A DNA stretch of 64,000 bases from Gammaproteobacteria bacterium. GTDB lineage: Bacteria; Pseudomonadota; Gammaproteobacteria; SG8-11. Positions within the stretch are counted from its first letter, which is position 1. Every line of letters begins with the position of its first letter. This document shows, piece after piece, positions 4,707 through 27,770 of the stretch. Location: the NCBI GenBank assembly GCA_024641505.1, contig JAHECY010000009.1, positions 20,091 through 84,090 of the forward strand, in the 5' to 3' direction. The notes below the pieces were generated by a model. That model saw only the letters and a program-made list of their open reading frames with translations, ran no database searches and was not told the origin of the DNA. A program made the position numbers and the translations under genes.

Positions 4707-6884
4707 TTAAAGAGAGATACAAATCGCATCGGAGGATCTGGACTCTAACTGATTCTGATAGGCACGTAACCTGAAGCAAGCATTGTCGCCGGCATTCAAA
4801 CCCAAATCACGGGCTGCATCAAAGGAGACAGATGGTTGTTTAGGATTGAATCCGGCTTGGTTTACCGGGCGAATCGAAACTGGGATGACGGCAGACTCAG
4901 GTGTGGGACCGTAATAAACGACATAGCCATCAATCGTATCTGAATTCGCGCTCCATTTAAATGTAACGTTGATATTTACCAGAGTGCATGCCACGCATTG
5001 AATGCGGACAAAAACTTCAGCAAAGGACACTTCGCCATTATTGTCAATAATCAAATAAATAAAACTGTCCCACCCTACAAAATTGATGTTAGGGGTGTAG
5101 GTTACAGTATTGTCGGCATTTAACACTGCAGTGCCGTTGGATGGGCTTGAGTACATTTCCACTTGTATGGGTATATTAACCAAATTGATATCATTTGCGA
5201 GCACGTCTATGTCAACGAAACTGTTCTGCAACACGATCACAGAGTCATTCTTACCAATGGGCCCATTACCGTTGGAGTTGCCTGGATTGTTTGGAAGTTG
5301 CGGCGCGGGCCGGAGTGCAGGCTCTAAGACCTCAACTTCGAGTATTCCAACCCAGTTGGTGTTATTTTCACTGGTTATGGTTATCTTCACATAACGAGTC
5401 TCTACAGTGCTTAAAGGATTTTCCGTCCAGCGTTTAGGTTCGGATTGATAGTTGGATATAGCATCCGTCCAATTTACACTATCTGTCGACAGGCTGATGG
5501 AGTAGTTGTAAGTTCGGTCCTGGTCGTAATTCAGGAAGGAAATAAGTACATTTCCAATTTTTTTAACAGTACCCAAATCGAGCGTTATCGACTGCGGCAT
5601 TCCATAGGCAGCCCAATAGGACCAACCAATACCGTCAACAATATTATCCGGGCCGTGACTTGCGTCCAGTGACGCAGTCGCGCTTACGGCAGATACGGGG
5701 ACTCTATTGACATTGTTTCGGTTTGTTGTGCCTGTAAGAGAACCGTCACGAATCGATTGGTTAACAATTTCCCATTGCTCCATGGTTCCGACGCCCGCGA
5801 CAGAATATGCAGTAGTGTAAAATTGGGAAATACTTGCGCTTGTTATCGTAGGGATGCTGTTCGAAAGGCTGCCGGGCGACGTGTTCTTAAGAATACTCTC
5901 AACTTTCAGGACATCGACACTGTAAGATAACTCCAGTACTGCATTTACCGCGTTCCGTGCCTGTTCGAGCAATACGTTCGATATCGTGGCGTCTGACTCC
6001 ATGCTGGCGGATACTGGAAGCCCCGGCATGACTGTATGAAGGGCCTGCTCAATTGCGTCAAAGCCCAGTTGCCCGTCAACTGCTAGATTGTTGGATAATA
6101 CTTCAACTGCAATTTGGGCCGAAAAAATATTTGCAACTGCGGCATAAAGCGGGTCCGCGTTCTTCGCGCCAATGCCGTCCAAAACGCCATCGGTGAGGTC
6201 TCCTGCGATTGAATCGACAAGTTCGTCATAGGACAGATCAAAATCGTGCTTCGTCAATGAAAGAAGTGCATAGGTCCGCTTAATCATTTCAGCAAGCGCT
6301 TCACCAGCCTTAACGATAGTGGCAATGTTTGACTTATCGATCGGCGTATAAAGCGGGTTGGGAATTTTTGTCAGGTCAAGACCAAAATTCAATTGCTTGA
6401 TTACAATCGCCGTCATATGGTCGACATTTTGCCGAGTTAAGCCGCCAGGTAGAAATTTGGCGCCTTTGGCAATTAATGTCGAGAACGGGTTTAAGTTAAC
6501 AGTCTGCTGAGTTTTCGAAGGAGCGATAGAAAATAGCGTGAATGTCGGTGCTTTTTTGGTCACGGTATCAATTCCGCCAGCTGCGGAAATGAGTACTGGA
6601 TATGTCATATCAGGCGGAATTTGTACCGTGTATGAGGCGGAGCCATTGTCAGATATTGACGTAAATGCAACGCCATTGCTGCCTCTGAAAGTTATAGCTG
6701 CGCCAATTATGGGTCCATCACCTACGCTTCCATAATGCACGCTGGGTGTGGGTTCTTCTTTGGCGGGTGTCGACGACACGTCATCTGACTGCGGGCTTTG
6801 GCTGCAACTCCAGAGGAAAATTAATGCATATGCATAAACAATGCGATTTAAGAGAGTCGTCAACACCAATTCTTTCTTCCCCAC
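4707..6884 (-). CDS. Lipoprotein with F5/8C discoidin, cadherin-like and FN3-like domains (copy B)
   Basis: A 725-aa paralogue of the 741-aa protein with the same order: signal peptide with lipobox LWSC, carboxypeptidase-regulatory-like domain (GDGPIIGAAITFRG), helical region sharing NFGLDLTKIPNPLYTPI with NFGIDRNMIPNPITSPI of copy A, discoidin-like domain (SASLDASHGPDNIVDGIG), cadherin-like domain (DVLANDINL, YTPNINFVGWDSF) and a terminal FN3-like domain (DTIDGYVVYYG). The first codon is GTG, with TAGG five bases before it. The two copies are clearly diverged, so the duplication is not recent. Binding to an extracellular polysaccharide is a domain-based inference. The intact reading frame argues for function. 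Confidence 0.75.
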   Translation of the reverse strand: MGKKELVLTTLLNRIVYAYALIFLWSCSQSPQSDDVSSTPAKEEPTPSVHYGSVGDGPIIGAAITFRGSNGVAFTSISDNGSASYTVQIPPDMTYPVLISAAGGIDTVTKKAPTFTLFSIAPSKTQQTVNLNPFSTLIAKGAKFLPGGLTRQNVDHMTAIVIKQLNFGLDLTKIPNPLYTPIDKSNIATIVKAGEALAEMIKRTYALLSLTKHDFDLSYDELVDSIAGDLTDGVLDGIGAKNADPLYAAVANIFSAQIAVEVLSNNLAVDGQLGFDAIEQALHTVMPGLPVSASMESDATISNVLLEQARNAVNAVLELSYSVDVLKVESILKNTSPGSLSNSIPTITSASISQFYTTAYSVAGVGTMEQWEIVNQSIRDGSLTGTTNRNNVNRVPVSAVSATASLDASHGPDNIVDGIGWSYWAAYGMPQSITLDLGTVKKIGNVLISFLNYDQDRTYNYSISLSTDSVNWTDAISNYQSEPKRWTENPLSTVETRYVKITITSENNTNWVGILEVEVLEPALRPAPQLPNNPGNSNGNGPIGKNDSVIVLQNSFVDIDVLANDINLVNIPIQVEMYSSPSNGTAVLNADNTVTYTPNINFVGWDSFIYLIIDNNGEVSFAEVFVRIQCVACTLVNINVTFKWSANSDTIDGYVVYYGPTPESAVIPVSIRPVNQAGFNPKQPSVSFDAARDLGLNAGDNACFRLRAYQNQLESRSSDAICISL

Positions 6885-7717
6885 ATGGCCTAAAATACAT
6901 TCACTATAACACTTGAGTTTAGTAGGGCTAAATATTCCTACAACAACCCGAGTGTTATGTATCTAAAGTCGTGCAACGATACCTACCCGCCCTTAATAAG
7001 TACTTAACAACAATTTATGTGCCAACTTTTTATGGATGGGGGTAGATAGCGAAAGTACTAGTGTAATTATTGTTATATCACTAAATACGAGGGCATGAGT
7101 ATGTCTGTTTTAAGTGCTAGAAACAAGCCATAGATGCTGTCGACCGGCCAAGATGTGAACAAGTAATGCGCCTCTTATTCAACAGTTACTGGCGCTGTTT
7201 GGTGAGTTATGTAATATTCGTTCGCCGTTAAAGGGCTATGCGCTCTAAAACATAAAAAACGGGAAAAATCTGTGGCAATTGCTGTATGTCTGTTGTCCGC
7301 TAACGGAATCATTAAGTTAATGTTTGACTAGGTCTTGAAGGAAGTAGATCGACCTGCCCATATCGTCAATCGTTGCAATAGATAGTTTGTGGTATGGGAG
7401 ACGAAAATTGTATTATTCATGTCAATGATGAAATGGTGTACAGTGAGATGCACGGACGCCGTTGGCGTGAGTTGATGTTGTGATCTGTAGCCGATGAGGC
7501 AAAGCACCGTGTAGAATTTCGGCACCGTGAGTAATAGCGGAACTGACTCCGCATGACGTTTAAGCGGCAAATGGCTGATGTGGTTGAGGCGGAATTAAGG
7601 GCAAAACTGTAGATGTTTCCGGCTGATAAGTTAGCGGTCAACGAATGGCCATGATGGGAGCCGTATGACTCCCGTAGTCGAGACCTAACCCGCAGAATGC
7701 AGAACCCAGGTAATCAA
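6885..7717. other. Long intergenic region upstream of the exopolysaccharide locus
   Basis: Some 830 bases between the divergent copy B lipoprotein and the EPS export gene. The first 350 bases are AT-rich; from about 7320 onwards composition approaches that of the following genes. The 80- and 74-aa reverse ORFs overlap each other in different frames and look like noise. No tRNA or insertion sequence was recognised. The size suggests long 5' leaders, regulatory DNA or a decayed gene, but I cannot show which. Confidence 0.4.
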
Positions 7718-8413
7718 ATGAATTTTAGATGGAATTTCCTCGTTCAGATGTGGCCATTGGTGTTTCTGTTTGGCGCAGCCGACATCCAGGGCGCAAATTT
7801 GGATTTCATTCCAGTCACCAGTGGTGCGGTGGCGCCAAACTCCATGGAAACGGCCGATGATTACATTATCGGTCCCCAAGATCTGCTTGAAGTGCAGGTC
7901 TTCCAGGCGGAGGATTACAAGGTCAGCACGCGTGTCAGCGAACAAGGGTATGTTTCGCTGCCATTGATTGCTCGGGTGCATGTTTCGGGATTAACCGTCG
8001 ACCAGCTTGAAGACGTTCTTGAAGCACGCCTCGGGCAGGATTATTTCCAAGATCCGCAGGTAACGGTATTTGTCAAAGAGTTTACCAGTCAACGTGTGAC
8101 CGTGGAAGGCAGTGTTATCAAGCCAGGCGTGTATCCGCTCAAGGGCCGAACGACACTGCTGCAGGCTATTGCCATGGCGGAAGGGGTCAGCGATCTTGCC
8201 GATCACTCCAATGTGCAGATTTACCGTGTAGGTGACAAAGAGAAAGCTACTGAAGTTCATGATTTGGAAAAAATACGCGCGGGCGAGGCGGTCGATCCGG
8301 TGGTCAATGGTGAAGACGTCATTGTTATACACCGATCCGAAGCCAAGTCATTCGTGAAAAACATAACCGATACCCTCAGAGGATTTGTGTCATTTGGCAC
8401 GGTAAGGCCGTAA
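7718..8413 (+). CDS. Polysaccharide export protein (Wza/EpsA-type, SLBB domain)
   Basis: A 231-aa periplasmic/outer-membrane protein of the polysaccharide biosynthesis/export family. After a signal peptide (WPLVFLFGAADIQGA) comes the typical Poly_export domain starting DYIIGPQDLLEVQVFQAEDY, then an SLBB beta-grasp domain around VTVEGSVIKPGVYPLKGR. No lipobox Cys is visible, unlike E. coli Wza, and the protein is shorter than Wza (about 380 aa), as in many EPS-type export proteins. I prefer the ATG at 7718, preceded by CAGGT, over 7697, which has no ribosome binding site. It is 24 bases from the kinase gene, so they form an operon. It should form or gate the outer-membrane exit for the polymer. 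Confidence 0.9.
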   Translation: MNFRWNFLVQMWPLVFLFGAADIQGANLDFIPVTSGAVAPNSMETADDYIIGPQDLLEVQVFQAEDYKVSTRVSEQGYVSLPLIARVHVSGLTVDQLEDVLEARLGQDYFQDPQVTVFVKEFTSQRVTVEGSVIKPGVYPLKGRTTLLQAIAMAEGVSDLADHSNVQIYRVGDKEKATEVHDLEKIRAGEAVDPVVNGEDVIVIHRSEAKSFVKNITDTLRGFVSFGTVRP

Positions 8414-8437: not shown

Positions 8438-10684
8438 ATGGAAAACCAGGACATGATGACAAGCCATCGGATCGGCAACCTGAGACCTGATCAGCGTCGC
8501 GATTCATCGCAAGGTTACATTGAAAGTGACGTCGTTTATGTCGAGGATGACGAAATTGACCTTCATGCCCTTTGGGATATTATTTTACGTCGGCGTTGGC
8601 TTATCCTGCTGGTGCTTTCCGCGTCATTGCTCGGCACTGCGTTGGCCACCTACCTGACCACACCAATCTACCGCGCCACCACAACCCTGCAGATCAATAA
8701 GGAAACCGCCAAGATATTTCAGTATCAGGATGTATCGCCGGTGGAAACCGATTTCTATGACCAGGATTTCCTGCAAACACAGTATGAATTGTTGCAAAGC
8801 CGCACCCTGACGAAACGTGTTATTGATCAGCTTTCTCTGTACAGCAACCCGGATTTTATTCCGGTTCAGCAGGATATAAGTATTCGTAAACTTCTGGGAC
8901 TCGTTGTTGACTCCAAAGCCGACATGAATGATCCGGAGCGTTTTGTCGATAAGTTTCTGAAAGATCTCGTGGTCGAACCGGTGAAACGTTCCCGTCTGGT
9001 ACGCATACATTATAACAGCGCGAATCCCCAGTTAGCAGCGACCATTTCCCGGACGGTCGCCGAAAGTTTTATTAATCTAAATCTTGAACGCCGCTTCGAT
9101 GCGTCTTCATACGCTAAAAATTTCATATCCGACCGCATACGCGAGGTTAAAAGCCGTTTGGAAGAATCGGAGCGGAAGCTGGTGGGATATGCGCGCAAAC
9201 TGGAAATTGTCAGTCTTGATGAGGAGCGACAACCGCTTATTTTGCAGCAATTGCAGGAGACAGGACTGAGTTTAGCCAAGGCGGAGCAGGAACGGATATC
9301 CGCGGAAGTGGCGTATCGGGAGATGACTCAGGGCGAGGGCCGGGTGTTCAGTAATGTATTGGCAAATCCCGTGGTGCAAGAATTAAAGCACGAGATCGCC
9401 AAACTTGAATCCGAATACCAGGAGAAGCTGCAGATCTATAAACCGGCTTATCCCTCCATGTCGCAGTTACGCAAGCGCATTGTCAGCCTGCAGGACAAGA
9501 TCGACGCGGAGGTCGTATTGTTGACCCGCGCCTATGAATCCGATTATCTTTCTGCATTCCATAAACAGGAGAGTTTGGCGGCCAGGCTGGAAGAGCTTAA
9601 GCAGGAAGCGCTGAATCTTCAGGATAACAGCATTAATTACAGTATCCTGAAACGCGAGGTGGATACTAATCGTCAACTGTACGAAGGTCTGTTACAACGC
9701 CTCAAGGAAGTGGGGGTGGCAGGTGGTGTGGGAGTCAATAACATCTCCGTAGTGGATTATCCCGAGGTGCCACGATTCAGTTTCAAGCCAAATTTGCAGT
9801 TGAATTTGTTGCTGGCATTTATTGTTAGCCTGTTCGCCGGTACGGGGCTGGCTTTTCTGGTCGAATATTTCGATGACAGTGTCAAGTCAGTGGATGATCT
9901 GGAAAACAAGAGTCAAATACCGGTTATTGGCGCCATACCAGACGTCTCCTACTTTCACTCTGAAATTCTTGGCGCCCAGCAAATTGGCCTGCTGTCCTTT
10001 ACGCAGCCCGACAGTATATTGGCCGAAGCTTTTCGTTCCACTAGAACATCTTTGATGTTTTCCGGTCCTAATGGCGCGCCGGCCGTAATGCAAGTCACCA
10101 GTCCCAGTCCGGGCGAGGGGAAGACCACCTCCGCGGTTAATATTGCCACGGCATTTGGTCAAATGGATGCCAAAGTATTGATTATTGATGCGGATTTAAG
10201 GAATCCATCGATTCACCATGTCTTGGGTTTGTCGAACCAGCGAGGGTTAACTAATTATCTGGTGGGAGAGGTATCCGCTGCGGAAGTTTCCTGTTACACG
10301 GGCATCGCTAAAATTTTTGCGATCCCCGCAGGGCCAATTCCCCCGAATCCGGCGGAACTGCTCTCCGGCGGACGATTGAAAGACCTTCTTATGTTGGCAG
10401 AGCAAAAATTTGACTATGTCGTTGTCGATGGTCCTCCGGTAATGGGTTTGGCAGATGCGTTGATTCTGGCAAATCAGGTTCACGGTACGCTTGTGGTGGC
10501 AGAGAGTGGAGGGACTCGGTATCGGGATATGGAGCACGCGTTGAAACGGTTGCGCAGTACCCACGCAAGACTGGTGGGCTGGGTATTATCAAAGCATCGC
10601 ATGGGGCGCGGCGGTTACGGTTACCACTCTTATTATTATGGAAGTGAAAAAAATCTACCAACAGCTTCCCCGGTTCAATTATAA
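8438..10684 (+). CDS. Polysaccharide co-polymerase / BY-type tyrosine kinase (Wzc-like)
   Basis: A 748-aa inner-membrane protein that combines a Wzz chain-length domain with a bacterial tyrosine kinase. TM1 is near residue 50 (WLILLVLSASLLGTALA) and TM2 near 450 (LLLAFIVSLFAGTGLAFLVEYF), with a large periplasmic coiled-coil part between them. The cytoplasmic kinase has Walker A (SPSPGEGKTTSAVN), Walker A' (VLIIDADLRNPS) and Walker B (YVVVDGPPVMGLADA). The C-terminal tail carries the Tyr cluster (YGYHSYYYG) that this family autophosphorylates. With the export protein upstream it should control polymer length and secretion. All catalytic motifs are intact. Confidence 0.93.
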   Translation: MENQDMMTSHRIGNLRPDQRRDSSQGYIESDVVYVEDDEIDLHALWDIILRRRWLILLVLSASLLGTALATYLTTPIYRATTTLQINKETAKIFQYQDVSPVETDFYDQDFLQTQYELLQSRTLTKRVIDQLSLYSNPDFIPVQQDISIRKLLGLVVDSKADMNDPERFVDKFLKDLVVEPVKRSRLVRIHYNSANPQLAATISRTVAESFINLNLERRFDASSYAKNFISDRIREVKSRLEESERKLVGYARKLEIVSLDEERQPLILQQLQETGLSLAKAEQERISAEVAYREMTQGEGRVFSNVLANPVVQELKHEIAKLESEYQEKLQIYKPAYPSMSQLRKRIVSLQDKIDAEVVLLTRAYESDYLSAFHKQESLAARLEELKQEALNLQDNSINYSILKREVDTNRQLYEGLLQRLKEVGVAGGVGVNNISVVDYPEVPRFSFKPNLQLNLLLAFIVSLFAGTGLAFLVEYFDDSVKSVDDLENKSQIPVIGAIPDVSYFHSEILGAQQIGLLSFTQPDSILAEAFRSTRTSLMFSGPNGAPAVMQVTSPSPGEGKTTSAVNIATAFGQMDAKVLIIDADLRNPSIHHVLGLSNQRGLTNYLVGEVSAAEVSCYTGIAKIFAIPAGPIPPNPAELLSGGRLKDLLMLAEQKFDYVVVDGPPVMGLADALILANQVHGTLVVAESGGTRYRDMEHALKRLRSTHARLVGWVLSKHRMGRGGYGYHSYYYGSEKNLPTASPVQL

Positions 10685-10993
10685 ATAGTGTGAGCCGCAG
10701 GCGTGTATATGTATGGATGAAAGGTGCCAATACCTGCAATGTAAGCTTTTTGTAAGTAGACCACTGTATTCTCCCTTATTTTGCCGTAGAACAGATTCGG
10801 TATAAGATTTTGGTATAAGAAATTTATCGTTAACGATAATGAAATTGACAGATTAATTATGGTAAAATGCAAATCCAATCGCGGATAGGGATACGTCTCT
10901 TGGTTGGTCTCAGTTATTGTCAGTAGTGAACTGGTTCTCCCGGCTAAAGGGGGAAGGGTTACTTTAAGTATCAGCCATGGTATTTAACATAAT
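10685..10993. other. Leader region before the DnaJ-like/receiver fusion gene
   Basis: A 309-base AT-rich gap that splits the EPS locus and probably holds a separate promoter. It contains a tandem GGTATAAGA repeat (10799-10807 and 10812-10820) and, just after it, a perfect 16-bp palindrome listed separately. A TTGACA at 10845 has no well-spaced -10 partner. No gene is visible. Confidence 0.45.
10824..10839. promoter_or_regulatory. Perfect 16-bp palindrome TTATCGTTAACGATAA
   Basis: The sequence TTATCGTTAACGATAA equals its own reverse complement. It lies 155 bases upstream of the DnaJ-like/receiver fusion gene, directly after two GGTATAAGA direct repeats. A dimeric repressor or activator site is a reasonable reading, but no regulator can be assigned. 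Confidence 0.4.
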
Positions 10994-13510
10994 ATGATAG
11001 GGTCAGGGTTACAGAAAAAAAATATGCCAAAGAACATTTTTCAATTGGCACTTGATTTTTACCGATCACCCACGGAATTTGGTGACTTGGTCGACGTTCA
11101 TAAATCCGTTCCACAAGGAATCGGTGATTTGTTAGCGTTTCTTGCCGGACCGGACCAGGAAAGAGTAAGGATTATTGGCAACAATGTCTCGTTACAGGGG
11201 GCTGGCGAGTTATTTGATGCCGCTTCCTACTTCGTGGAAGAAGTGTTGTTTGTCCCGGGAGCGGATTATTACCGGTTGCTGGGGGTTCGAACGGACGCCA
11301 GCGCAGATGTGGTACGTCAACATTACCAATATTTGATCGGCCTGTTCTACCAGGACGAGCGCAGCAGCATGGTTAATTGGAAAGAGTCCGATTCCATGCG
11401 GGTTAATCAGGCCTACAGTGTGCTGCGCGATCTCGAAAAACGTCGTAATTACAACGTCAAACTCGCCGCGACGGGGCGTCAGATCGAGCAATTTGATCCG
11501 ACAACCTATAAAAAACAGGAACGTACACGCCAAAAACCGCTAGAGACGCATAACGAAAATACCGTGATAGCTCGGTCTGCCGACACGGATGTGTTAGGCT
11601 CTGGGAAGGTCAAGCGCGAAGCCGAACAGGTGTTGGCCGATGCGGTCCGTCTGGCCAGCAACCATGTTTCCGCAAAATCTGATGTTATTCCTGCGGTGAA
11701 AACGGTAAGTGCGCACGCGCCCAGGACCGCTGCCAGTGCGGATGATCTTCCAAAAATTTTGATCTGCGATGACTCCGCAACAGTGCGTGCCAGTCTCGCC
11801 AAAGCTTTATCTAATGATTTTCGGTGTTTGCGCGCGCGCAATGGCGATGAAGGATGGCGCATCCTTCAGGACAACCCGGATGTGAAGTTGGTGCTGACCG
11901 ATCTGGAAATGCCGGAAATGGACGGCTATGCACTGATCACGAAAATTCGAGCCAGCGATCGACCGAACCTGGCAAATATCCCGATTATCATCGTAACCAG
12001 TGCCTCAGACACCAAAGCGAAACAACTGGCCCTGGGTAAGGGCGCCAGCGACTTTCTTGCCAAGGGAACGGACTATGTGGAAATTCTGGCCCGCGTGCGC
12101 GTGCACTACCGGCTGGCAAAGTCCACGGAATTGATACCAGAGTCCGTGCCGACCGTTCACACCCGGTCAAGTGTAGCTGCACCGGATGACGAAGAAAAAA
12201 CCGTGTTTCTGGACCTGTCGAAAACGCGCATGCCCATTGATGCACGGGATCGAGATCCATCTGCCCGGCGCGGTGGTGTCGAGAAATCCGCCTGGCTGCC
12301 AAAGCCGGTGCTTATCGGGGCGATGAGTCTGGTGGTCGTCGTTGTGTTGGCGCTGATGTTCAGCAGCGGCAATAAGGAGGCGCCGGAGACATCCGCGCAA
12401 GTAGCGGGTTCCCCAGCGAACGGTGCCCCGGGTGATGAAGTTGCACCGTCTGCTGCCACTGCTCCCGCGGAGGATACCAATCAGCTTACTGTACTCGACG
12501 TGGTAAAACCTGACACCGCGGCTGGTGCGCAGCCGGTAGAATCGGCACATAGCACGACCAAACCCTTGGTTTCCGTTGTCTCCAAGACTGCTTCGCGGGA
12601 AGTCAGCACCAATAAACCTTCCAAAGATAATGCAGCCCTCGTCGATCGCTCCGCGGAGCAACGTCGGAAGGAATCGAGTTTTCGCAAGAACAATTTGGCG
12701 GATGCGACGGAAATCATTCCGACGGTTGTCACGGATGTACCGGCAAATTCCGCACCCGGCACTGATGCCGCTGGTGAACCCCAGGATCCGGAAGAGACAC
12801 AAAAAATTAAACAACGCCTGGCGGAAATTGAGGCCGAGAGCATGGCGATGGCAGTTCGGAATGAACAGCCTGCCAACGATGAATTTGATGCGCTGGCGCC
12901 TTCGACGCAGGTTGCAGCCAAGGGAGACGCGCCTATCGGCAGCGGCGTTGGCAGTGGTGTGAATGCCATCTCGGCAATGGGCAGCGCTGTTACGCCATCG
13001 GTAGGCGCAGCGAACGCCGTTGCCTCAGTTGCACCAGAGGGCGTGGCGGATCCTTTTAATACGACGATACCTGCCGAAGACGACGGTGATGGAAAACAAG
13101 TCGCTATGGCCGAACCTGCTAAACCTGTGATGCGGGATCTGATCAGTTCCACGGAGTTATCGATACTGTTGTTCAAATTCGTACGCGCTTACGAAGAAGG
13201 CAATCTGTTTCAGTTCCTGGGCCTGTTCGATCCGGATGCCCGCACAGAAGATCGCGTTGGGATACGCGAAATTCGCAAGGACTATGAATTGTTGTTCAAG
13301 AAGTCCGATGTACGCCAGTTCATTATTCAGGACATGAATTGGACCAAAGAAGGTATTCGCGCCGTAGGCAAAGGGAAGTTTGAAGTCAAGATCAAGGCGC
13401 AGGGCAGCGATAAAATGAATGCTTACTCGGGGACAGTGACGTTCCATGTGGTAAAAAGAGCTGATGAGATCTTCGTCACCCAACTATTTCATTCCTACGC
13501 TCAACAATAA
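10994..13510 (+). CDS. DnaJ-like / receiver / TM / NTF2-like fusion protein
   Basis: An 838-aa protein with an architecture I do not recognise as a named family. Residues 91-155 form a J-like domain (ADYYRLLGVRTDASADV, then VNQAYSVLRDLEKRRNY), but the HPD motif needed to stimulate DnaK reads YQD. Residues about 253-375 are a receiver domain with the acidic pair (LICDDS), phospho-Asp (LTDLEMPEMDG), Thr/Ser (IVTSAS) and Lys (FLAKG). A TM helix is at 433-456 (VLIGAMSLVVVVVLALMF), then a long Ala/Pro/Ser-rich linker. Residues about 712-838 form an NTF2/SnoaL-like domain shared with the 172-aa gene nearby. The receiver would be cytoplasmic and the NTF2-like part periplasmic. ATG 10994 or 11024 are both possible starts. 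A role in EPS control is inferred from location. Confidence 0.8.
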   Translation: MIGSGLQKKNMPKNIFQLALDFYRSPTEFGDLVDVHKSVPQGIGDLLAFLAGPDQERVRIIGNNVSLQGAGELFDAASYFVEEVLFVPGADYYRLLGVRTDASADVVRQHYQYLIGLFYQDERSSMVNWKESDSMRVNQAYSVLRDLEKRRNYNVKLAATGRQIEQFDPTTYKKQERTRQKPLETHNENTVIARSADTDVLGSGKVKREAEQVLADAVRLASNHVSAKSDVIPAVKTVSAHAPRTAASADDLPKILICDDSATVRASLAKALSNDFRCLRARNGDEGWRILQDNPDVKLVLTDLEMPEMDGYALITKIRASDRPNLANIPIIIVTSASDTKAKQLALGKGASDFLAKGTDYVEILARVRVHYRLAKSTELIPESVPTVHTRSSVAAPDDEEKTVFLDLSKTRMPIDARDRDPSARRGGVEKSAWLPKPVLIGAMSLVVVVVLALMFSSGNKEAPETSAQVAGSPANGAPGDEVAPSAATAPAEDTNQLTVLDVVKPDTAAGAQPVESAHSTTKPLVSVVSKTASREVSTNKPSKDNAALVDRSAEQRRKESSFRKNNLADATEIIPTVVTDVPANSAPGTDAAGEPQDPEETQKIKQRLAEIEAESMAMAVRNEQPANDEFDALAPSTQVAAKGDAPIGSGVGSGVNAISAMGSAVTPSVGAANAVASVAPEGVADPFNTTIPAEDDGDGKQVAMAEPAKPVMRDLISSTELSILLFKFVRAYEEGNLFQFLGLFDPDARTEDRVGIREIRKDYELLFKKSDVRQFIIQDMNWTKEGIRAVGKGKFEVKIKAQGSDKMNAYSGTVTFHVVKRADEIFVTQLFHSYAQQ

Positions 13511-13639: not shown

Positions 13640-14905
13640 GTGATTTCAAAGCAAATACGCCAAGTCAGCGTGCGGGTGGCTGCCGCCGGCGTCCTGTCAT
13701 TAACCATTCTGATAGTATGGCGAATTGCTTCGTACGGGATCAGTGAAACCTTGACGCAATACGCGTTATACGACCAATCCTCTCCTTCTGCCCTTAATAC
13801 CGCACTCGCCTGGTCGATGGATAACTCCAATACGTTGTATAGGGTCGCTTATTCGTTTGATGAACGACATCTTGAACAACGTATAGAGTACCTCTCAGAC
13901 GCGCTTAAATTGAATCCTGGCGATGGTCGTATTGCCATGAGTCTTGCTGCTTCCCTTAAACAATTCGGGGATAAGGAGCGCGCAGACGCATTTGCTGACC
14001 AAAGCGTAATACTGTTACCTGACGACGCCAATACCTTGCTTCAAGCGGGGGATTATTGGTGGCGCGGGGGAGAGTATTCCCGTGCGGTGGAGTCTTGGGG
14101 GAGGGCGTTGTCCCATGAACCGGCTGTGAATCAAAAATTATTCCCGGTGTTTCTGCGCATCATGGAACAGGCTGGTGGTATGGAAGTGATGCGTGACACC
14201 TTGATCGCTGTACCCGCCTGGTTTAACGATTTCTTCGAATATGTGATGACCAACGCCAGTAACGACCAACTGGTGAGGCGACTTTTTGCCTTGCGTAACG
14301 AGGCTGCGGTACCGGTGACATTGGCGGAACAAAAATCTTATTTGCGTTTTCTGGAAGCGGAACGGCGTTGGGACGAAGCTTTCGTGGTATGGGCCAATAG
14401 TCTGCGCCGGGAAAATCTGAGCGTAATGGGGCAGCCGGTCAATGGCGGTTTCGAAGTCGAGCCGACCGGAGTGGGATTCGATTGGCGCGTTCGGGAAGAT
14501 CCCGCAGTATTGATCAAGACGGATTACACTTACGGGATCAGCGGCCATAAAGCGCTTCATATCATATTTCGCGGGCAGCGCGTCAATTTTCGTCATATTG
14601 AACAGTTGATGATATTGCAGCCCCGTAAATACCGTTTTCGTGGTCAGGTTCGGCCCGACAGCTTGCAGGCGGCTGCAGGAGTGCAGTGGCAACTGACGTG
14701 CGTTGGCGGTAAGGAGCAGCCCTTTGCGCGCAGCAATCGATTTATCGGTGTCGATCAGTGGCGTACATTCTCCTTTGATTTCAAAGTTCCCCGACAGGAC
14801 TGTGATGGGCAGGTGCTGCGCCTGGTATCAGTGACGCAAGGCGTTGAAGACCCTGTCTACAAGGGGGAGATATGGTTTGATGACTTGAGTATCGAAGCGT
14901 TGTAG
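13640..14905 (+). CDS. Membrane-anchored TPR protein of the EPS locus
   Basis: A 421-aa protein with an N-terminal TM or uncleaved signal segment (AAGVLSLTILIVWRIA), TPR-like helical repeats at about 70-170 (LEQRIEYLSDALKLNPGDGR, AMSLAASLKQFGDKERADAF), and a C-terminal beta-rich part (about 260-421: NGGFEVEPTGVGFDWRV, WFDDLSIEAL) resembling the carbohydrate-binding-like domains found at the ends of such TPR proteins. It starts with GTG, with GGAAGGG just upstream. Proteins of this shape occur in exopolysaccharide operons, usually as assembly scaffolds; the exact function is unknown. It lies in line with the EPS genes on both sides. Confidence 0.7.
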   Translation: MISKQIRQVSVRVAAAGVLSLTILIVWRIASYGISETLTQYALYDQSSPSALNTALAWSMDNSNTLYRVAYSFDERHLEQRIEYLSDALKLNPGDGRIAMSLAASLKQFGDKERADAFADQSVILLPDDANTLLQAGDYWWRGGEYSRAVESWGRALSHEPAVNQKLFPVFLRIMEQAGGMEVMRDTLIAVPAWFNDFFEYVMTNASNDQLVRRLFALRNEAAVPVTLAEQKSYLRFLEAERRWDEAFVVWANSLRRENLSVMGQPVNGGFEVEPTGVGFDWRVREDPAVLIKTDYTYGISGHKALHIIFRGQRVNFRHIEQLMILQPRKYRFRGQVRPDSLQAAAGVQWQLTCVGGKEQPFARSNRFIGVDQWRTFSFDFKVPRQDCDGQVLRLVSVTQGVEDPVYKGEIWFDDLSIEAL

Positions 14906-15018: not shown

Positions 15019-15537
15019 ATGAAAACCTGGGTGGGGTCTATTCTAACAGTCTATATCTTCGTTCTGGGTGCTCTCGTGCCGTTTCCAATGGCGTTGGCGC
15101 AGGGTGGTAATGAGGTATCGGTGTATTCTTTGGGTACGGAATCGGACCTGGGCTTCGAAAAGGCCCGAGGCGCTTTGGTAGAAGCATTTATTGATGCTTA
15201 TTCAAAGGGAGAAACCGATATATTCCTGAGATTATTCAGCGATAATGCCCGTGCCGATGATAAGATAGGCAAGTCCGGCATTCGGTCGGATTATGAAATG
15301 CTGTTTACCGGCAGCAGGAGTCGGATTATTCGACTCCAAAACATAAAGTGGCACAACAAGAAAGGCGACGACAGTTACGCGATCGCCGATTTTGAGGCAC
15401 GAGTCATCCCCAATGACAAGGATCAGGAAAAAATCTACCGCGGTGCCATTGAATTGCATGTGAAAAAAGAAAATAATAACATTGTAATCAGTGAGCTGTA
15501 TCATGCCTATGATAATGCTTCCGTGGCCACACAATAA
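15019..15537 (+). CDS. Exported NTF2/SnoaL-like domain protein
   Basis: A 172-aa protein with a signal peptide (ending PMALAQG) and one NTF2-like domain at about 45-165. That domain matches the C-terminal domain of the 838-aa fusion: FIDAYSKGETDIFLRLFSDN against FVRAYEEGNLFQFLGLFDPD, and IRSDYEMLF against IRKDYELLF. Start ATG 15019 has a strong GGAGGTGG four bases upstream; the longer track ORF begins at TTG 15007 with no site of its own. The cone-shaped fold binds small ligands or proteins in other families; I cannot assign a ligand. It sits between the TPR and FecR-domain genes. Confidence 0.75.
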   Translation: MKTWVGSILTVYIFVLGALVPFPMALAQGGNEVSVYSLGTESDLGFEKARGALVEAFIDAYSKGETDIFLRLFSDNARADDKIGKSGIRSDYEMLFTGSRSRIIRLQNIKWHNKKGDDSYAIADFEARVIPNDKDQEKIYRGAIELHVKKENNNIVISELYHAYDNASVATQ

Positions 15538-15554: not shown

Positions 15555-16136
15555 ATGAAGATTCACAAATTTGTCACCTGTGCATTCACTTGCATGGTTT
15601 GTCTCAGCAGTTCTTTGGTTTTGGCGAATTCAGAGAATACAGTTCAGCTAAAACGACTGGAAGGGACGGTATTAGTGAATCAAGGCAAGGGGTTTTCGTT
15701 AGCGGCGCCGGGTATGCAATTGCAGCCTGGAAGTCGTGTGCTGGTCATGTCGGACGGTGGTGTAAGCGTAGTTTTCTCCGATACCTGCACCATAGATATT
15801 GCTGCTAACAGCATATTTAGCTTGGGGAATACCCGGAGCTGCGAGCAGTTACGCAAACAAATCCAGACCGTGGGACCCTATTATGCTGCCGCCATAGGTG
15901 TCGAAGCCGTTGGTGATGCTAAGTCACCAGGTAAAACACGCACTGATGCCGGTGACGCAGGCACTGGCGGTGACGCAGGGGCTGCTGCTGCGGGTGGGGA
16001 GCCGGAAGTGGTATTCGCAGGCATGTCGATGAATGAAATTATCGTCGTGGGTGTTGGTGTCGGTGCTGGGTTGGCCGTGGTAGTGGCAAGTGGTGGCGGT
16101 GGTAACAAGAGCAACGGTGCCATCAGTCCGGAATAA
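15555..16136 (+). CDS. Exported FecR-domain protein
   Basis: A 193-aa protein with a signal peptide (VCLSSSLVLA), then a FecR-like beta domain (about 30-95: LEGTVLVNQGKGFSLAAPGM, GSRVLVMSDGGVSVVF), a Gly/Ala/Asp-rich linker, and a C-terminal hydrophobic Gly-rich segment (IIVVGVGVGAGLAVVVASGG) that may be a membrane anchor. No sigma-factor gene or TonB receptor is near, so this is not a classical iron-dicitrate FecR. AGGA lies four bases before the ATG. It is 17 bases after the NTF2-like gene and 8 bases before the ligase gene, so it is part of one operon. Confidence 0.75.
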   Translation: MKIHKFVTCAFTCMVCLSSSLVLANSENTVQLKRLEGTVLVNQGKGFSLAAPGMQLQPGSRVLVMSDGGVSVVFSDTCTIDIAANSIFSLGNTRSCEQLRKQIQTVGPYYAAAIGVEAVGDAKSPGKTRTDAGDAGTGGDAGAAAAGGEPEVVFAGMSMNEIIVVGVGVGAGLAVVVASGGGGNKSNGAISPE

Positions 16137-16144: not shown

Positions 16145-17644
16145 ATGCAATTCTACAATTTTTTCTCATGGGATAAACCGTCCTATAATCAGCGATTGTT
16201 GTTTATCGCCCTGTTGTTGATTTTCTTTTTTGCACCGTTATTTCGTGCGGCGAATCGGCCCTTTCCTCTGATGATCACCGAGTTGGCAGCGCTCTGGCTG
16301 CTGTTCTATTGTGTGATCCAACGGCCGGGGTTCAGGTCGTTGAGAATGGATCTGCGGATCTTGCTGGGCGCGGTGCTGGGTTTTCCGTTGCTCTATCTTA
16401 TGCCTCTGCCTTTCGATTGGTGGGCCGCATTGCCGGGACGGGACATATATGGCACGACATTGAAGTTAATTGATTCACAGTCCTATATGTCGGTGTCCGT
16501 AATGTCGGTAAAAACCGAACAGGCGTGGTTGGCTTTGTTACCCCCGGTTGCCATCTTTACTGTCGTTTCCCTGTTGGAGGTAGGCCGGGTAAAAGCACTG
16601 GTAGCAGCATTTCTCGTCATTGCCTTTGGTGAAGCATGCCTTGGGCTCATTCAATACGGAGATGGTCCGCTTAGTATCTTGCGCCTGGGTAATCCGTATA
16701 ACGATAGCAGCGCAGTGGGTACCTATATTAATCGGAATCACCTCGCTGGACTGTTGGAAATGGCGCTGCCTGTTGCCTTGGGCATGCTGGCAGCAACCAT
16801 CGGCCGCAGTCGTTCCCAGCTAAGTTACGCGCGTAATTTTAAGGAAAAAGCCCTTGGGTTTATTGACAACTTCTCGCAAAACGCAGTGGTGCATGCGTTT
16901 ACATGCGTGGTGATATTGCTGGGATTGGTGTTTACCCAGTCCCGTAGCGGTGTGGGGTTGGCGATGATAACGATATTGCTGGCGATGATTGCCTATGCGC
17001 GCAGGTTGGGCGGTACCAACGTCTTTGGATTGTTTGGAACCTTGTTCGCCGTGGTGCTGGGGGCGGGAGTGTTAACCGGCTTGGCCCCGGTGCTCAGCCG
17101 ATTTACGGTAGACCCTCTGGCCGACAATCGGTGGGAAATTTTCAGTTTTAGCCTGCGGGGTATTGGCGAGTTTTTTCCGGTGGGCAGCGGCCCAGGGACA
17201 TTTCCTTATGTGTTTCCACGCTTTCAAATGAATATTGATGGTTTTGTCAACCATGCGCATAACGATTATCTCGAATGGTTATTCGAGGGTGGATTACTTG
17301 CCGCCCTGCTAATGTTCGCTATTATCGTGGTGTTTCTGCGGCAGTGGCCGCGTCTCTGGATAACTGAGCGTTGGAGTGAGTTTCGATTCATGAAAATTGG
17401 CGCCGGGATCGGCGTGTTTGCCATGATGCTCCATGGGATGACGGATTTTAACTTGCATATTCCCGCCAATGCGCTATTTTTTGCGTTTCTTATGGCGGTG
17501 TTTTTTCATTCCGGCGATGAAGCAAGCAACGTTGATCGTGCTACGCGTAACCATCGGGATGCAGGAATGTCCCGGATTCCCGTGCCGATTCTTCCCAAGC
17601 CAGATGCGGCCACCGCCCCCAAGAATCCATTTCTGGAAGAGTGA
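16145..17644 (+). CDS. O-antigen ligase / polymerase family membrane protein (Wzy_C)
   Basis: A 499-aa polytopic membrane protein with about ten to twelve hydrophobic segments. The family's periplasmic signature is visible: NRNHLAGLLEMALPVALGML in the middle, and GSGPGTFPYVFPRF followed by NHAHNDYLEWLFEGG, the H-x-H-N-x-Y/F motif shared by WaaL/Wzy-type transferases. It would polymerise or ligate lipid-linked sugar repeats made by glycosyltransferases, none of which are encoded in this window. It is the last + strand gene of the EPS block and converges on mobB. Whether it is a polymerase or a ligase cannot be decided from sequence. Confidence 0.88.
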   Translation: MQFYNFFSWDKPSYNQRLLFIALLLIFFFAPLFRAANRPFPLMITELAALWLLFYCVIQRPGFRSLRMDLRILLGAVLGFPLLYLMPLPFDWWAALPGRDIYGTTLKLIDSQSYMSVSVMSVKTEQAWLALLPPVAIFTVVSLLEVGRVKALVAAFLVIAFGEACLGLIQYGDGPLSILRLGNPYNDSSAVGTYINRNHLAGLLEMALPVALGMLAATIGRSRSQLSYARNFKEKALGFIDNFSQNAVVHAFTCVVILLGLVFTQSRSGVGLAMITILLAMIAYARRLGGTNVFGLFGTLFAVVLGAGVLTGLAPVLSRFTVDPLADNRWEIFSFSLRGIGEFFPVGSGPGTFPYVFPRFQMNIDGFVNHAHNDYLEWLFEGGLLAALLMFAIIVVFLRQWPRLWITERWSEFRFMKIGAGIGVFAMMLHGMTDFNLHIPANALFFAFLMAVFFHSGDEASNVDRATRNHRDAGMSRIPVPILPKPDAATAPKNPFLEE

Positions 17645-18877: not shown

Positions 18878-21697
18878 ATGGAATTGTACAGAAATATTTC
18901 TCAAACAGTCACCAGGATAATTGACGTGATCGGCATTGCCAAGGTCCGGATTGGATTATGTCTGATATTGATGATGTTGACGCAGTCCGTGTTCGCCAGT
19001 GTCGAAACGGGCGACCAAGCCTTGGAAAAAGGGGATTACGTGGCCGCCTTGCAGATCTGGAAACCACTTGCCGAACAAGGTAATGCGCAAGCGCAGATAC
19101 GTATTGGTGATTTGTACCGCAAGGGGTGGGGTGTGCGCCGGGACTTCAAAGCGGCATTTTCCTGGTATGAGAAAGCCGCGAGCCAGGGCGATCCCGAGGG
19201 GCAATACCAGTTGGGTAGTCTGTATCGGAACGGGATGGGCACCAGGAAAAATCTGGATGAAGCCGTTAGATGGTTTGAGGAAGCGGCCAAAAAGGGCTAC
19301 GACAAAGCTGAATTCAGTTTTGCGGTGATGTTGGAGAATGGTTGGGGTGTCGAAGAAAATGCCAAGCGTGCGCTGATCTGGTACGGTCGGGCCGCCAAGA
19401 AACAATATGCGCCGGCATTGAAGCGTCTTATGGAGTTGGAGAAGGAAGGTATCAAACCCGTAGTGGAAATAAAATCCGACGAAGATATTCCTCAGATTTT
19501 TTCCAGCGCCTTGCGTGACGGTAACGTCGACCAGGTCAATGCGATACTCCAGAAAGTAAAGAATGTAGATTATAAACTGGACAAATATCAAAATACTCCG
19601 CTGTTGCTCGCGGCTCAATATGGGCACGATGGTCTTGTGCAGTTGTTGCTTGAGAAAGGGGCTGCCGTTGATCACGCCAATCAACAGGGAGTAACCGCCT
19701 TGATGCGTGCCGCCAAGGCAGGCAGCGTGCGGGCAGTACGCGCGCTATTGAAGTACAACGGGTCTATGAATCATCAGGACGAGTTAGGTCGCACCGCGCT
19801 GATCGAGGCTATCAGTGATAACAAGAGCCAGGTGGTATCGCTGCTGTTGGGCAGCGGCGTGGATGTAAATCTCGCCGACAAAAAGGGGTGGTCACCGTTG
19901 TATCATGCGTTAAGAATCGATGAAACCCAGATTCTTGATATGCTGCTGCACTCGCCCGCCAAGGTGAATTACAAGGACAGCAGCGGTATTCCTATACTTC
20001 ATTATGTAATACAGCAGAAAAAACAGAATGTGCTGAATAAGCTGCTGGCGGCGGGAGCGGATGTCAACATTACCGATGCCATCGGTCAGAATGCCATGAT
20101 GGTCGCCGCTGACCTCGGCTATGCGCCCGCAGTCACCGCGTTGTTGGCCAAAGGCGCTGATTCACGTGTCAAGAATAACGAGGGCTGGACGCCGCTGATG
20201 CTAGCCGCGAAATCTGGCAGCAGTGCCTCGGTGGAAGCGCTGCTCAAGGCTGGAAATTCGGCGGATTTGCAGAACGAATATGGTGACACCGCGCTTATGC
20301 TGGCGGCCGGTAAAGGATTCGATGCGATTGTATCCTCCTTGATCAGCCACCGCGCGAACATCGATATGAAAAACAAGCAGGGATGGACCGCCTTGATGTT
20401 TGCCTCCCAAGCGGGATCGGCTGCCACCGTTAACACACTATTGCAGGCCGGTTCCGGTATCAATATAGTGAACAACCTGCAGGAATCTCCTCTGATGCTT
20501 GCCGCGGAAAGAGGGCACTTGGAAGTAGTGCGTGTGTTGGTAGCCAAGCGGGCGGATATTAACAGTAAGAATCGTGCCGGGCACAGCGCCGTGACACTTG
20601 CCGAAGCCAAGAACCAGAATTTGATTTTGAAATTCCTGCGCAGCAAAGGCGGTATCCTGTACAAGGTGGTGGAGACTCCTGAGTTAGAGCTAAAACGTCA
20701 GGATCAACGCCGGCAACAAGATCTGTTCAAGGGTTGGACCGAGCTGATGATCGCCGCCTGGAACGGTAAAATACTGGATGTTAACAACCTTCTGCGATCG
20801 GGTCAGCAGAAAGACGCCCAGAATCCCGATGGCATGACGGCGCTGATGCTGGCTACGGGCAAAGGAAATGCCGATGTCGTGCAATCCTTGCTTACCAACC
20901 AGGTGGACATCAATAAACAGGCGCGTAACGGCCGTACCGCGCTGATGATTGCTTTGGACGAAGGGCAATTCGATATCGCACGCCTGCTGCTGCCGTATAA
21001 ACCCCGACAGGACCTTGCGGACAAGCAGGGGCAAACCGCACTATTCTACGCCGTCGACAAACGCCAGCTGGCTTTGGTGCGCGATCTTCTGAAAGCGGGT
21101 GCCGATATCAGCAAGCGTACGGAGAATGGCGATACACCGCTGACGGACGCTTTGAAAAACAGCGCGGACGATATCGCCGTGTTCCTGGTAAATGCCGGTG
21201 CCGGAATCCACTGGATGGATAACGACGGCAGAAATATGTTGTGGCTGGCCGCGCGTTACAAAAATGACAATGCGGTTCGTTTGTTGATAAAGAAAGGATT
21301 GGATATCAATCACCGCAAGCATAACGGCGAATCCATTGCTATGGCTGCGGTGCGTAGTGGTGACGCCAAACTGGTTGATTTCCTGTTTTCCATTGGCGCG
21401 GACCTGCGTTCCACGGATCAGCAGGGTAATACCGCTTTGCATATTGCCAGCGATACCGGCAATCTTGAGATCGTTAAACTGTTGATCAAGTCAGGCGTCG
21501 GCGTCAACACTGAAAATGAAGTGTGGTCGACACCCATCATATTCGCCGCGTCCAAGGGGCATCTGGCGATTGTTACCTACCTCGTGGAGCATGGGGCGGA
21601 ACTGGATATCAAGAACAAAACCGGTGACACACCCTTCAGCATCGCCACTAGCCACGGCTACAAGGACGTGGCCAGTTATATCCGGCAGAAGTTATAG
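18878..21697 (+). CDS. Exported Sel1-repeat plus ankyrin-repeat protein
   Basis: A 939-aa protein with a long N-region and a hydrophobic signal (IGLCLILMMLTQSVFASVE), so it is probably periplasmic or outer-membrane facing. About four Sel1-like repeats span about 45-190 (QAQIRIGDLYRKGWGVRRDF, EGQYQLGSLYRNGMGTRKNL). I count about 22 ankyrin repeats from about 205 to the end, many with the canonical TALMxAAxxG turn (WTALMFASQAGSAATV). A break around 600-620 (TPELELKRQDQRRQQDLF) separates two ankyrin blocks. Such proteins are binding scaffolds; the partner is unknown. A bacterial repeat protein of this size need not be an effector, since no secretion signal other than Sec is visible. Confidence 0.88.
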   Translation: MELYRNISQTVTRIIDVIGIAKVRIGLCLILMMLTQSVFASVETGDQALEKGDYVAALQIWKPLAEQGNAQAQIRIGDLYRKGWGVRRDFKAAFSWYEKAASQGDPEGQYQLGSLYRNGMGTRKNLDEAVRWFEEAAKKGYDKAEFSFAVMLENGWGVEENAKRALIWYGRAAKKQYAPALKRLMELEKEGIKPVVEIKSDEDIPQIFSSALRDGNVDQVNAILQKVKNVDYKLDKYQNTPLLLAAQYGHDGLVQLLLEKGAAVDHANQQGVTALMRAAKAGSVRAVRALLKYNGSMNHQDELGRTALIEAISDNKSQVVSLLLGSGVDVNLADKKGWSPLYHALRIDETQILDMLLHSPAKVNYKDSSGIPILHYVIQQKKQNVLNKLLAAGADVNITDAIGQNAMMVAADLGYAPAVTALLAKGADSRVKNNEGWTPLMLAAKSGSSASVEALLKAGNSADLQNEYGDTALMLAAGKGFDAIVSSLISHRANIDMKNKQGWTALMFASQAGSAATVNTLLQAGSGINIVNNLQESPLMLAAERGHLEVVRVLVAKRADINSKNRAGHSAVTLAEAKNQNLILKFLRSKGGILYKVVETPELELKRQDQRRQQDLFKGWTELMIAAWNGKILDVNNLLRSGQQKDAQNPDGMTALMLATGKGNADVVQSLLTNQVDINKQARNGRTALMIALDEGQFDIARLLLPYKPRQDLADKQGQTALFYAVDKRQLALVRDLLKAGADISKRTENGDTPLTDALKNSADDIAVFLVNAGAGIHWMDNDGRNMLWLAARYKNDNAVRLLIKKGLDINHRKHNGESIAMAAVRSGDAKLVDFLFSIGADLRSTDQQGNTALHIASDTGNLEIVKLLIKSGVGVNTENEVWSTPIIFAASKGHLAIVTYLVEHGAELDIKNKTGDTPFSIATSHGYKDVASYIRQKL

Positions 21698-24354: not shown

Positions 24355-25929
24355 ATGTTGGGAAAAAGATTGCTTCTGGCGGCAATAGTCGTCTTGTGTG
24401 GAATACCACCTGCGGGTGCGGCTACCGATGTGATCAATTCGGTGGAGCGGGCCTTAATGCCCGGCGAACTTTCCAAGCCGCACGCGAAATACGAGGCGGA
24501 TTGTAACCAATGCCATGAATTCTTCCGCAAAACCAAGCAGAATGATCTATGCCTTAAGTGTCATGATCATAAGAATATTCGCAAGGATATAGAGAATAAA
24601 CACGGCTTACACGGCCGTACGCCGGAAATCCGCAACAAAGATTGTAACGCCTGCCATTCCGAACACAAGGGTCGGGAAAACAACATCATTATTCTTGATA
24701 ACCAGACCTTTAATCACAATTTTACCGATTTCTTTCTTCAGGAAAGCCACGCCACGGTACCGTGTACCAAGTGCCATGAGAAGGACAAGAAGTATTACGA
24801 AGCGAAATCGGAATGCGTTGACTGCCACAAAAAAGTCGAGCCGCATCAGGGAAAGCTGGGCAAACAATGTAACAGCTGTCACCGGGCCAGCACCTGGGGT
24901 GATTTCGTCTACGATCATGGTAAAACGAAATTTCCGTTGAAAGGTAAGCACAAAGGTGTGCGCTGCAGCGATTGCCATCCTAATGAGCAATATATCAATA
25001 TTCCCAAGGAGTGCATTGGTTGTCATAAGGGTGATGACAAACACAAGGGCAAGAACGGCAAGGAATGCAAGAATTGCCATTCCGAGCAGGGTTGGGCGTC
25101 CTATAAATTTGATCATGACAAGGACACTAAATTTCCACTCGATGGCAAGCATAAAAATGTTATCTGCGACCAATGTCACAAGCAGACGGACGAAAAACGG
25201 AAATTAAAACGGGATTGCTATTTCTGTCACCAGTTCGTCGATGCGCATAAAGGGCTGTACGGCAAGAAATGCCAGGATTGCCATAAGACGGAGAATTGGT
25301 CCAAGCAAAAATTTGACCACGATAAAACGGATTTCAAGCTGGAGGGCAAGCATGAAAAAGTCCGTTGTCAGAGTTGTCATCCGGGTGATTTATATAAGGA
25401 CAAGGCAAAGAGCGAATGCTATGCCTGTCACAAGCAGGATGATCCGCATGCCGGCAAACAGGGCAAGCGGTGTAATGACTGTCATAATGAACAGGGTTGG
25501 CAGAAACAAATTGCGTTCGATCACAATTTGACAAAATTTCCTCTGTTAGGAGCCCATGCCGGGCTGACGTGTGAAGAGTGTCACAGTTCTGGCACTTTCA
25601 GTGAGGTAAAAATAAACTGTTACTCATGTCATAAGCAGCATGACAAACATAAGCTGCGCATGGGTGAGAAATGTCAGCGTTGTCATTTTTCCACCGACTG
25701 GAAGGTATGGGAATTCGATCATGACAAACAAACCAAGTATCCACTTAAGGAAGCCCATAAAGGCATCGCATGCGAGCGTTGCCACAAGGAAGTTGTCAAA
25801 GAGGATCTGAAAATTTCCAGTGTTTGTTATCGATGTCATGCCCACAATGATATTCATGAAGGGCAGTTCGGACGCAACTGCGGTCGTTGTCATGACACCA
25901 AGGCCTTTGAGAATGTAAATATGCGTTAG
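24355..25929 (+). CDS. 21-haem multiheme cytochrome c
   Basis: A 524-aa protein with a signal peptide (LLLAAIVVLCGIPPAGAA) and 21 CXXCH haem-binding motifs by my count, about one per 25 residues. It is built from repeats of roughly 70-75 residues with the pattern FDHDKTxFPLxGKHxxVxCxxCH, where the extra His can be distal ligands. It is Lys-rich and very polar. There is no lipobox, so a soluble periplasmic carrier is the simplest view. It would take electrons from or give them to the membrane cytochrome b upstream and pass them along to the 22-haem protein and barrel. The start is 22 bases after the preceding stop. Confidence 0.93.
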   Translation: MLGKRLLLAAIVVLCGIPPAGAATDVINSVERALMPGELSKPHAKYEADCNQCHEFFRKTKQNDLCLKCHDHKNIRKDIENKHGLHGRTPEIRNKDCNACHSEHKGRENNIIILDNQTFNHNFTDFFLQESHATVPCTKCHEKDKKYYEAKSECVDCHKKVEPHQGKLGKQCNSCHRASTWGDFVYDHGKTKFPLKGKHKGVRCSDCHPNEQYINIPKECIGCHKGDDKHKGKNGKECKNCHSEQGWASYKFDHDKDTKFPLDGKHKNVICDQCHKQTDEKRKLKRDCYFCHQFVDAHKGLYGKKCQDCHKTENWSKQKFDHDKTDFKLEGKHEKVRCQSCHPGDLYKDKAKSECYACHKQDDPHAGKQGKRCNDCHNEQGWQKQIAFDHNLTKFPLLGAHAGLTCEECHSSGTFSEVKINCYSCHKQHDKHKLRMGEKCQRCHFSTDWKVWEFDHDKQTKYPLKEAHKGIACERCHKEVVKEDLKISSVCYRCHAHNDIHEGQFGRNCGRCHDTKAFENVNMR

Positions 25930-27734: not shown

Positions 27735-27770
27735 AGAAAAGAATAAATTTGTTTGGGGAAGTAATATTTA

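Follow-up and report, generated by a model that had tools for sequence, protein, structure and literature searches.

The locus and its surroundings

The window, i.e. the whole stretch of 64,000 nucleotides that was analysed, carries on its forward strand an EPS operon with the gene order Wza, Wzc, the gene under study, a TPR/CBM protein, a secreted NTF2 protein, a FecR-like protein and Wzy. The first gene (7697–8413) encodes a Wza/EpsE-type polysaccharide export protein (Poly_export, E 2.4e-23; SLBB) and the second (8438–10684) a Wzc-type co-polymerase/tyrosine autokinase with Wzz, GNVR and AAA_31 matches and a score above the cut-off of TIGR01007. The gene under study (10994–13510) is a full gene for a protein of 838 residues with the order [N+J-like]-REC-TM-linker-NTF2, as delineated from the open reading frame, Pfam and an orthologue (L108:7145–9673). 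The next gene (13640–14905) encodes a TPR and carbohydrate-binding-module-like protein, which has weak matches to TPR and CBM_4_9 and a conserved position. It is followed by a companion, a secreted stand-alone NTF2 protein of the same family (15019–15537), which is 34% identical to the C-terminus of the 838-residue protein and is kept in the genus-mate G003; the open reading frame is listed from a TTG at 15007, and the signal peptide starts at the ATG at 15019. The last two genes encode a small periplasmic FecR-like/LapA-retention-like protein (15555–16136; NF033682 match below threshold, and synteny) and a member of the Wzy-type polymerase/O-antigen ligase family (16145–17644; Wzy_C, E 2.3e-15).

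Pairwise DNA alignment with the second species revealed a conserved block of about 27 bases upstream of the gene (10846–10873, forward strand) with an extended −10-like sequence, TGG-TAAAAT. The block suggests that the gene may have its own promoter; the −10-like element did not score above shuffled sequences in a motif scan. The 310 bases 5′ of the gene were considered as the site of a known riboswitch; this was dropped, as Rfam gave no match to an RNA element in the operon.

Just upstream of the operon lie two large paralogues with F5/8 type C and Ig/cadherin-like domains (1979–4204 and 4707–6884, reverse strand). A Sel1 and ankyrin-repeat protein of 939 residues (18878–21697, forward strand) takes the same place after the EPS operon in the genus-mate. 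Further downstream (24355–30077, forward strand), two multihaem cytochrome c7/MtrC-like proteins and a protein of 768 residues without a Pfam match form a cluster that resembles a porin-cytochrome (extracellular electron transfer) cluster.

Domain structure of the protein

The protein starts with a module of about 150 residues, of which the J domain is the second half and an unnamed conserved N-domain the first. The N-domain (residues 11–89; 11024–11260) has no Pfam family, is 85% identical in the genus-mate and can be aligned across 10 families. An internal ATG at 11024 is an alternative start, which agrees with the start positions in the family. The J-like domain (residues 91–154; 11264–11455) matched Pfam DnaJ with an E-value of 3.1e-8, above the curated cut-off, and the family J-module profile matched DnaJ structures in the PDB (E 8e-15), so that by sequence it is a J domain. 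The HPD motif for stimulation of Hsp70 is replaced by YQD at residues 119–121 (11348–11356) and by YQE in G003. An AlphaFold2 model of the N+J module, calculated from a single sequence, had a pLDDT of 42 and was set aside.

The receiver (residues 255–369; 11756–12100) was found with Pfam Response_reg (E 1.6e-20) and has the full residue set of a response regulator: the acidic pair (D259/D260), the phospho-acceptor Asp (D303), Thr/Ser (T335/S336) and Lys (K357). D303, encoded at 11900–11902, is the predicted phospho-acceptor from inspection of the conserved residues. The NCBIfam matches listed for the protein were all to receiver models, far below their cut-offs.

The single hydrophobic segment of the protein is a transmembrane helix at residues 439–457 (12308–12364), with a mean Kyte-Doolittle value of 2.79 and the same position in relatives. 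Basic residues on its N-terminal side indicate an N-in/C-out orientation. We infer from this a bitopic topology with a periplasmic NTF2 domain, for which the signal peptide on the homologous companion provides independent support. The helix is followed by an Ala/Pro/Ser/Val-rich low-complexity linker (12365–13126), predicted to be periplasmic from its composition, with 33% identity in the genus-mate comparison versus 80% for the NTF2 domain.

The C-terminal domain (residues 712–838; 13127–13507; predicted periplasmic) was delineated with AlphaFold2, Foldseek and the family alignment A4. Pfam gave a match to SnoaL_2 of the NTF2 superfamily over residues 728–819 that stayed below the cut-off (E 0.0066). 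An AlphaFold2 model, with two window sequences as the only input, had a pLDDT of 86 and a pTM of 0.78 and showed the NTF2 order of helices and strands. Its Foldseek matches in the PDB were NTF2-like, ketosteroid-isomerase and CaMKII-hub folds (E 1e-8 to 1e-6), the top ones being NTF2-fold proteins (E 1.6e-8, TM up to 0.80), and the family profile matched ketosteroid isomerase (E 1.7e-5). By predicted structure the C-terminus is firmly an NTF2 fold, a cone of alpha and beta elements.

Pfam, hydropathy and AlphaFold2/Foldseek thus bear out what the earlier note had read at 10994–13510: a J-like domain with YQD for HPD, a receiver with its phosphorylation residues, a central hydrophobic segment that spans the membrane, and an NTF2-like domain. 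The note had missed the conserved N-terminal half (residues 11–89), the family and the companion NTF2 protein.

Conservation in a second species

Both the protein (842 residues) and the complete operon recur in the genus-mate G003. An artefact or a frameshift as the origin of the fusion was ruled out, as the same fusion is kept in this second species. The identities between the two proteins are 85% for the N-domain, 75% for J, 80% for the receiver and 80% for NTF2, as opposed to 28–49% for the linkers. Where synonymous change is unsaturated, dN/dS was 0.06 for the receiver, 0.09 for NTF2 and 0.14 for J. The conservation of the modules and the low dN/dS values indicate that all four domains, the receiver included, are under purifying selection.

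Extent and architectures of the family

The window's own order is small (family and order together give five genomes), and samples of the class and the phylum were used instead. A whole-protein scan of genome contigs was dominated by ordinary receivers, at loci without an NTF2-family protein or a full N+J member. A profile of the N+J module (alignment A2, the first ~150 residues) was searched in 369 gammaproteobacterial genomes, and the best 20 matches that extend beyond the J domain were taken with their surroundings. At 18 of these 20 loci, found class-wide by the J module alone, a transmembrane helix and an NTF2 domain of the same family were present in the same open reading frame; an independent NTF2 profile (A3) matched the 18 with E-values of 3e-39 to 6e-23. 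The two exceptions are L156, which is cut off by the end of its contig, and L162, which has another periplasmic domain. A single helix lies between J module and NTF2 domain in nearly all relatives. The window protein has all the defining parts, namely the N+J module, one transmembrane helix and a C-terminal NTF2 domain of the A4 type. Including it and its genus-mate, the members found among the best 20 matches in the 369 genomes represent 14 genera and 10 families.

Of the 369 genomes, 26 contained matches to the expanded NTF2 profile A4, the top E-value in every one of them being lower than 1e-25. Among 399 genomes sampled across the phylum, none outside Gammaproteobacteria was matched; the A4 NTF2 family is sharply bounded. 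Its domains occur in the architectures J-TM-NTF2, J-TM-TPR-NTF2, AAA-TM-NTF2, AAA-J-TM-NTF2, tandem NTF2 and stand-alone secreted NTF2. The order J-REC-TM-NTF2 was seen only in the window's genus, in two proteins (window and genus-mate) out of 34 with a J module. A REC-TM-NTF2 protein (L194) has a receiver that lacks the phospho-Asp (LTGTG). In the source genome (G000), an N+J module without HPD is fused to two FHA domains and has no NTF2 domain (L112:7072–8850 of contig C4, reverse strand); an ExeA/GspA-type ATPase and a GspB-like gene are nearby.

In two relatives (L110 and L157) the AAA part scored higher than the TIGR03015 threshold, i.e. that of the XrtA/PEP-CTERM system-associated ATPase. 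The first lies in an XrtA-type locus with PrsK/PrsR-like genes (L110:888–9404, genome G004), in which the XrtA-associated ATPase ends in a transmembrane helix and an NTF2 domain. TIGR03015-type ATPases share with the window protein both the C-terminal TM-linker-NTF2 part and the link to EPS loci, and in several genera they also carry the N+J module. The window protein has no AAA+ ATPase in Pfam or NCBIfam and, unlike L110 and L157, falls outside TIGR03015; the model itself spans the ATPase only (269 residues) and leaves out J and NTF2. The region at the C-terminus of TIGR03015 proteins seems to be undescribed. An ATPase-NTF2 paralogue in the source genome (L107) is surrounded by housekeeping genes, and on the same contig (L107:1–2656 of C222, reverse strand) the open reading frame of a DnaB helicase is interrupted by an apparent intein. 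Ten NTF2-family domain matches were found in genome G304 (L157 and L201–L206), where several of the proteins have short unrelated cytoplasmic parts and one transmembrane helix, a lineage-specific expansion.

No model in Pfam or NCBIfam covers the [N+J]-TM-linker-NTF2 architecture, and no description of it was found in a search of the open-access literature, a scope outside which preprints and most subscription journals fall. This agrees with the earlier statement that no named family has the domain order of the window protein. The order with the receiver was seen in one genus only, and the broader [N+J]-TM-NTF2 family is associated with EPS. Apparently, [N+J]-TM-NTF2 proteins are an undescribed EPS-linked family of which the window gene is a receiver-bearing variant.

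Operon context of the family

The EPS context proposed in the earlier note was confirmed, and it recurs in distant relatives. The order Wza-Wzc-[J protein]-TPR/CBM-(FecR)-Wzy is shared by seven loci from five families, including the window and G003, and the window gene takes the family position between Wzc and the TPR-CBM and Wzy genes. The other five (L149, L151, L159, L160 and L161) have the same order without the solo NTF2 gene and sometimes without FecR; L151 ends at a contig edge after the TPR gene. Ten further genomes, from the taxonomic order of G072, share the operon order, some of them cut by contig ends. Most J-type loci without this operon still adjoin EPS genes: CpsB/CapC (L148), WecG (L152), Bac_transf or glycosyltransferases (L145 and L158), or SLBB/Wza-like proteins with FecR nearby (L144 and L146). 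No EPS gene was recognisable in the stretch examined at L153, L150 and L163.

The source genome has six Poly_export genes in 4.78 Mb, from which a Wza gene would be expected by chance within 5 kb at about 1% of loci. The operon link of the family to EPS genes is strong. Most Wza loci lack a J-TM-NTF2 protein (in the source genome it is present at one of the six), which indicates that such systems do not universally need it.

Loss of the HPD motif and exchange of domains

Among 35 J modules, HPD is present in 12, QPD or QPE in three and neither in 20. The 12 HPD modules (10 in one taxonomic order, plus L149 and L160) are all in the same operon type. Since HPD was kept in 12 and lost in 20 of the 35, the J fold has outlived the DnaK motif, and the loss seen in the window protein is common among its relatives. 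In a J tree from which the motif columns were left out, HPD versus non-HPD modules can be explained by two changes, but the deep branches are weak. From the motif counts and the tree, the J domain appears as an inherited part whose DnaK-activating motif has largely been lost; its ancestor, to judge from the HPD-positive relatives with this operon, may have recruited DnaK.

In the NTF2 tree the window domain groups (SH-aLRT 94) with the NTF2 domain of an ATPase from the same taxonomic family and not with the NTF2 domains of other J-type proteins. This suggests that cytoplasmic input modules have been swapped on a common TM-NTF2 output.

Possible functions

The interpretation that we favour, with about even confidence, is that the protein is bitopic in the inner membrane and serves a Wzy-dependent machine for EPS assembly/export as an adaptor. 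This is suggested by what is constant, i.e. the N+J module, the transmembrane helix, the NTF2 domain and the position in the operon; the varying parts (AAA+, receiver, TPR) look like added inputs. A family gene that lies between export and polymerase genes probably helps to build or control the export machine. We infer this role, as well as the partners and the direction of phospho-control given below. The N+J-like module would bind a client in the cytoplasm, for which the Wzc encoded next to it or another subunit of the machine is most likely, and the relatives that keep HPD may also bring DnaK. The long flexible linker would let the NTF2 domain reach a periplasmic partner or glycan, for which peptidoglycan, the nascent polymer and the Wza, Wzy or TPR-CBM proteins are candidates. 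The NTF2 domains probably form oligomers; the secreted companion may join these or compete for their sites. The receiver of the window's genus, placed between J module and transmembrane helix, appears to be an insertion, and its phosphorylation at D303 would adjust directly, and not via transcription, how the complex assembles or how active it is.

There is precedent for a scaffold of this shape: in the VirB8 family a single transmembrane helix and one or two NTF2 domains make up oligomeric scaffolds in envelope-spanning machines (PMC11753425). VirB8, TcpC and OrfG resemble the family in having a single helix and, after it, an extracytoplasmic part of one or two NTF2-like domains; VirB8 has no J or receiver domain, unlike the window protein. 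The VirB8 models of Pfam and NCBIfam did not match the window protein, whose context is EPS and not type IV secretion, and a tandem relative gave only a sub-threshold match to the TcpC model. Several points count against an adaptor: the loci without a recognisable EPS gene, the ATPase-NTF2 paralogue among housekeeping genes, the many Wza loci that lack the protein, and the fact that most of the structures nearest to the NTF2 domain in fold belong to small-molecule enzymes and not to scaffolds.

Rather doubtful is a true signalling regulator, in which a histidine kinase would phosphorylate the receiver and the signal would pass across the membrane to the periplasmic NTF2 domain and switch EPS production. 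The intact receiver residues, the strong purifying selection (the dN/dS given above) and the place of the gene in an EPS operon argue for it; the operon, however, contains no kinase for the receiver, and a conformational relay through a disordered linker of about 250 residues is hard to picture. Moreover, all sampled J-type relatives outside the genus lack a receiver, and that of the REC-TM-NTF2 protein L194 lacks its phospho-Asp. With receivers in so few of the J-module proteins, a general phospho-relay cannot be the core function of the family. The interpretation in the earlier note is supported in part: its EPS context holds, and the role of the receiver has to be revised. Response regulators with unusual outputs share the complete receiver; the window protein is set apart from others by an output that consists of a transmembrane helix and a periplasmic domain, with no DNA-binding or enzymatic part. 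The nearest receiver in the source genome (41%) is that of a REC-GGDEF diguanylate cyclase (51278–52483, reverse strand).

ExeA/GspA ATPases carry peptidoglycan-binding domains that fix the complex to the cell wall, and the same NTF2 module is found at the C-terminal periplasmic place of ExeA-like/XrtA ATPases. An NTF2 domain that anchors the EPS complex to peptidoglycan is conceivable in this light, if unlikely. Pgp2, Csd6 and Bd1075 have periplasmic NTF2 domains, those of Pgp2 and Bd1075 binding, or being proposed to recognise, peptidoglycan (PMC8938487), and Bd1075 was a Foldseek match of the window model (TMq 0.74). These proteins share the fold with the window protein; their NTF2 domains are fused to an LD-carboxypeptidase, and no sequence similarity was found between the peptidoglycan-binding domains and the window family. 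Such an anchor overlaps with an adaptor and differs from it in the ligand.

A membrane-tethered DnaK co-chaperone that remodels the EPS machine or signalling complexes, in the manner of DjlA, is quite improbable for the window protein. In both, a J domain is anchored at the inner membrane and has a link to the making of polysaccharide: overproduction of DjlA raises capsule via Rcs, for which the J domain is required (PMC11709261). The HPD-bearing modules, all in the same operon type, are in keeping with such an activity. DjlA, however, has an N-terminal transmembrane helix, a TerB-like domain, a C-terminal J domain with HPD and no NTF2 domain, an order and a motif that differ from those of the window protein. 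Its H233Q mutant is inactive as a co-chaperone (PMC11709261), and with YQD in the window, YQE in the genus-mate and HPD lost in most of the family, the explanation is tenable for the HPD-bearing relatives only.

That the NTF2 domain is an isomerase-, cyclase- or lyase-like enzyme modifying a polymer or lipid intermediate in the periplasm is very improbable: the top structural matches are ketosteroid-isomerase/SnoaL-type folds, and a Tyr, an Arg and a Trp that are invariant or nearly so over 64 NTF2 domains could line a pocket, but the catalytic positions vary (at that of Tyr14 of ketosteroid isomerase, Phe in 42 of the 64, including the window protein, and Leu in 11; at that of Asp38, Asp in 25; Asp99 could not be aligned), and the domain, occurring in tandem, alone and in fusions, has the look of a module for binding. 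The ketosteroid isomerase reference is a sequence that we take to be correct, its first 59 residues agreeing with a PDB fragment.

Implications

The favoured adaptor role can be carried, tentatively and with low confidence, to the family as a whole: its members could be accessory subunits of widespread Wzy-dependent EPS machines, connecting a chaperone-derived cytoplasmic module through the membrane with an NTF2 scaffold; in the one lineage that has gained a receiver, phosphorylation would gate the assembly of polysaccharide post-translationally across the inner membrane. Descriptions of Wzy-type EPS machines comprise Wza, Wzc, Wzx and Wzy. That several families keep one more gene between Wzc and Wzy means that a component of the machine, or of its control, may have escaped notice. 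The family is also a natural experiment, in which a J domain has been losing its Hsp70 motif while still under selection, and it shows the exchange of cytoplasmic inputs (J, AAA+ and receiver) on one periplasmic NTF2 module. As HPD and the receiver are each present in some members and absent from others, swaps can be used to test what the individual parts do.
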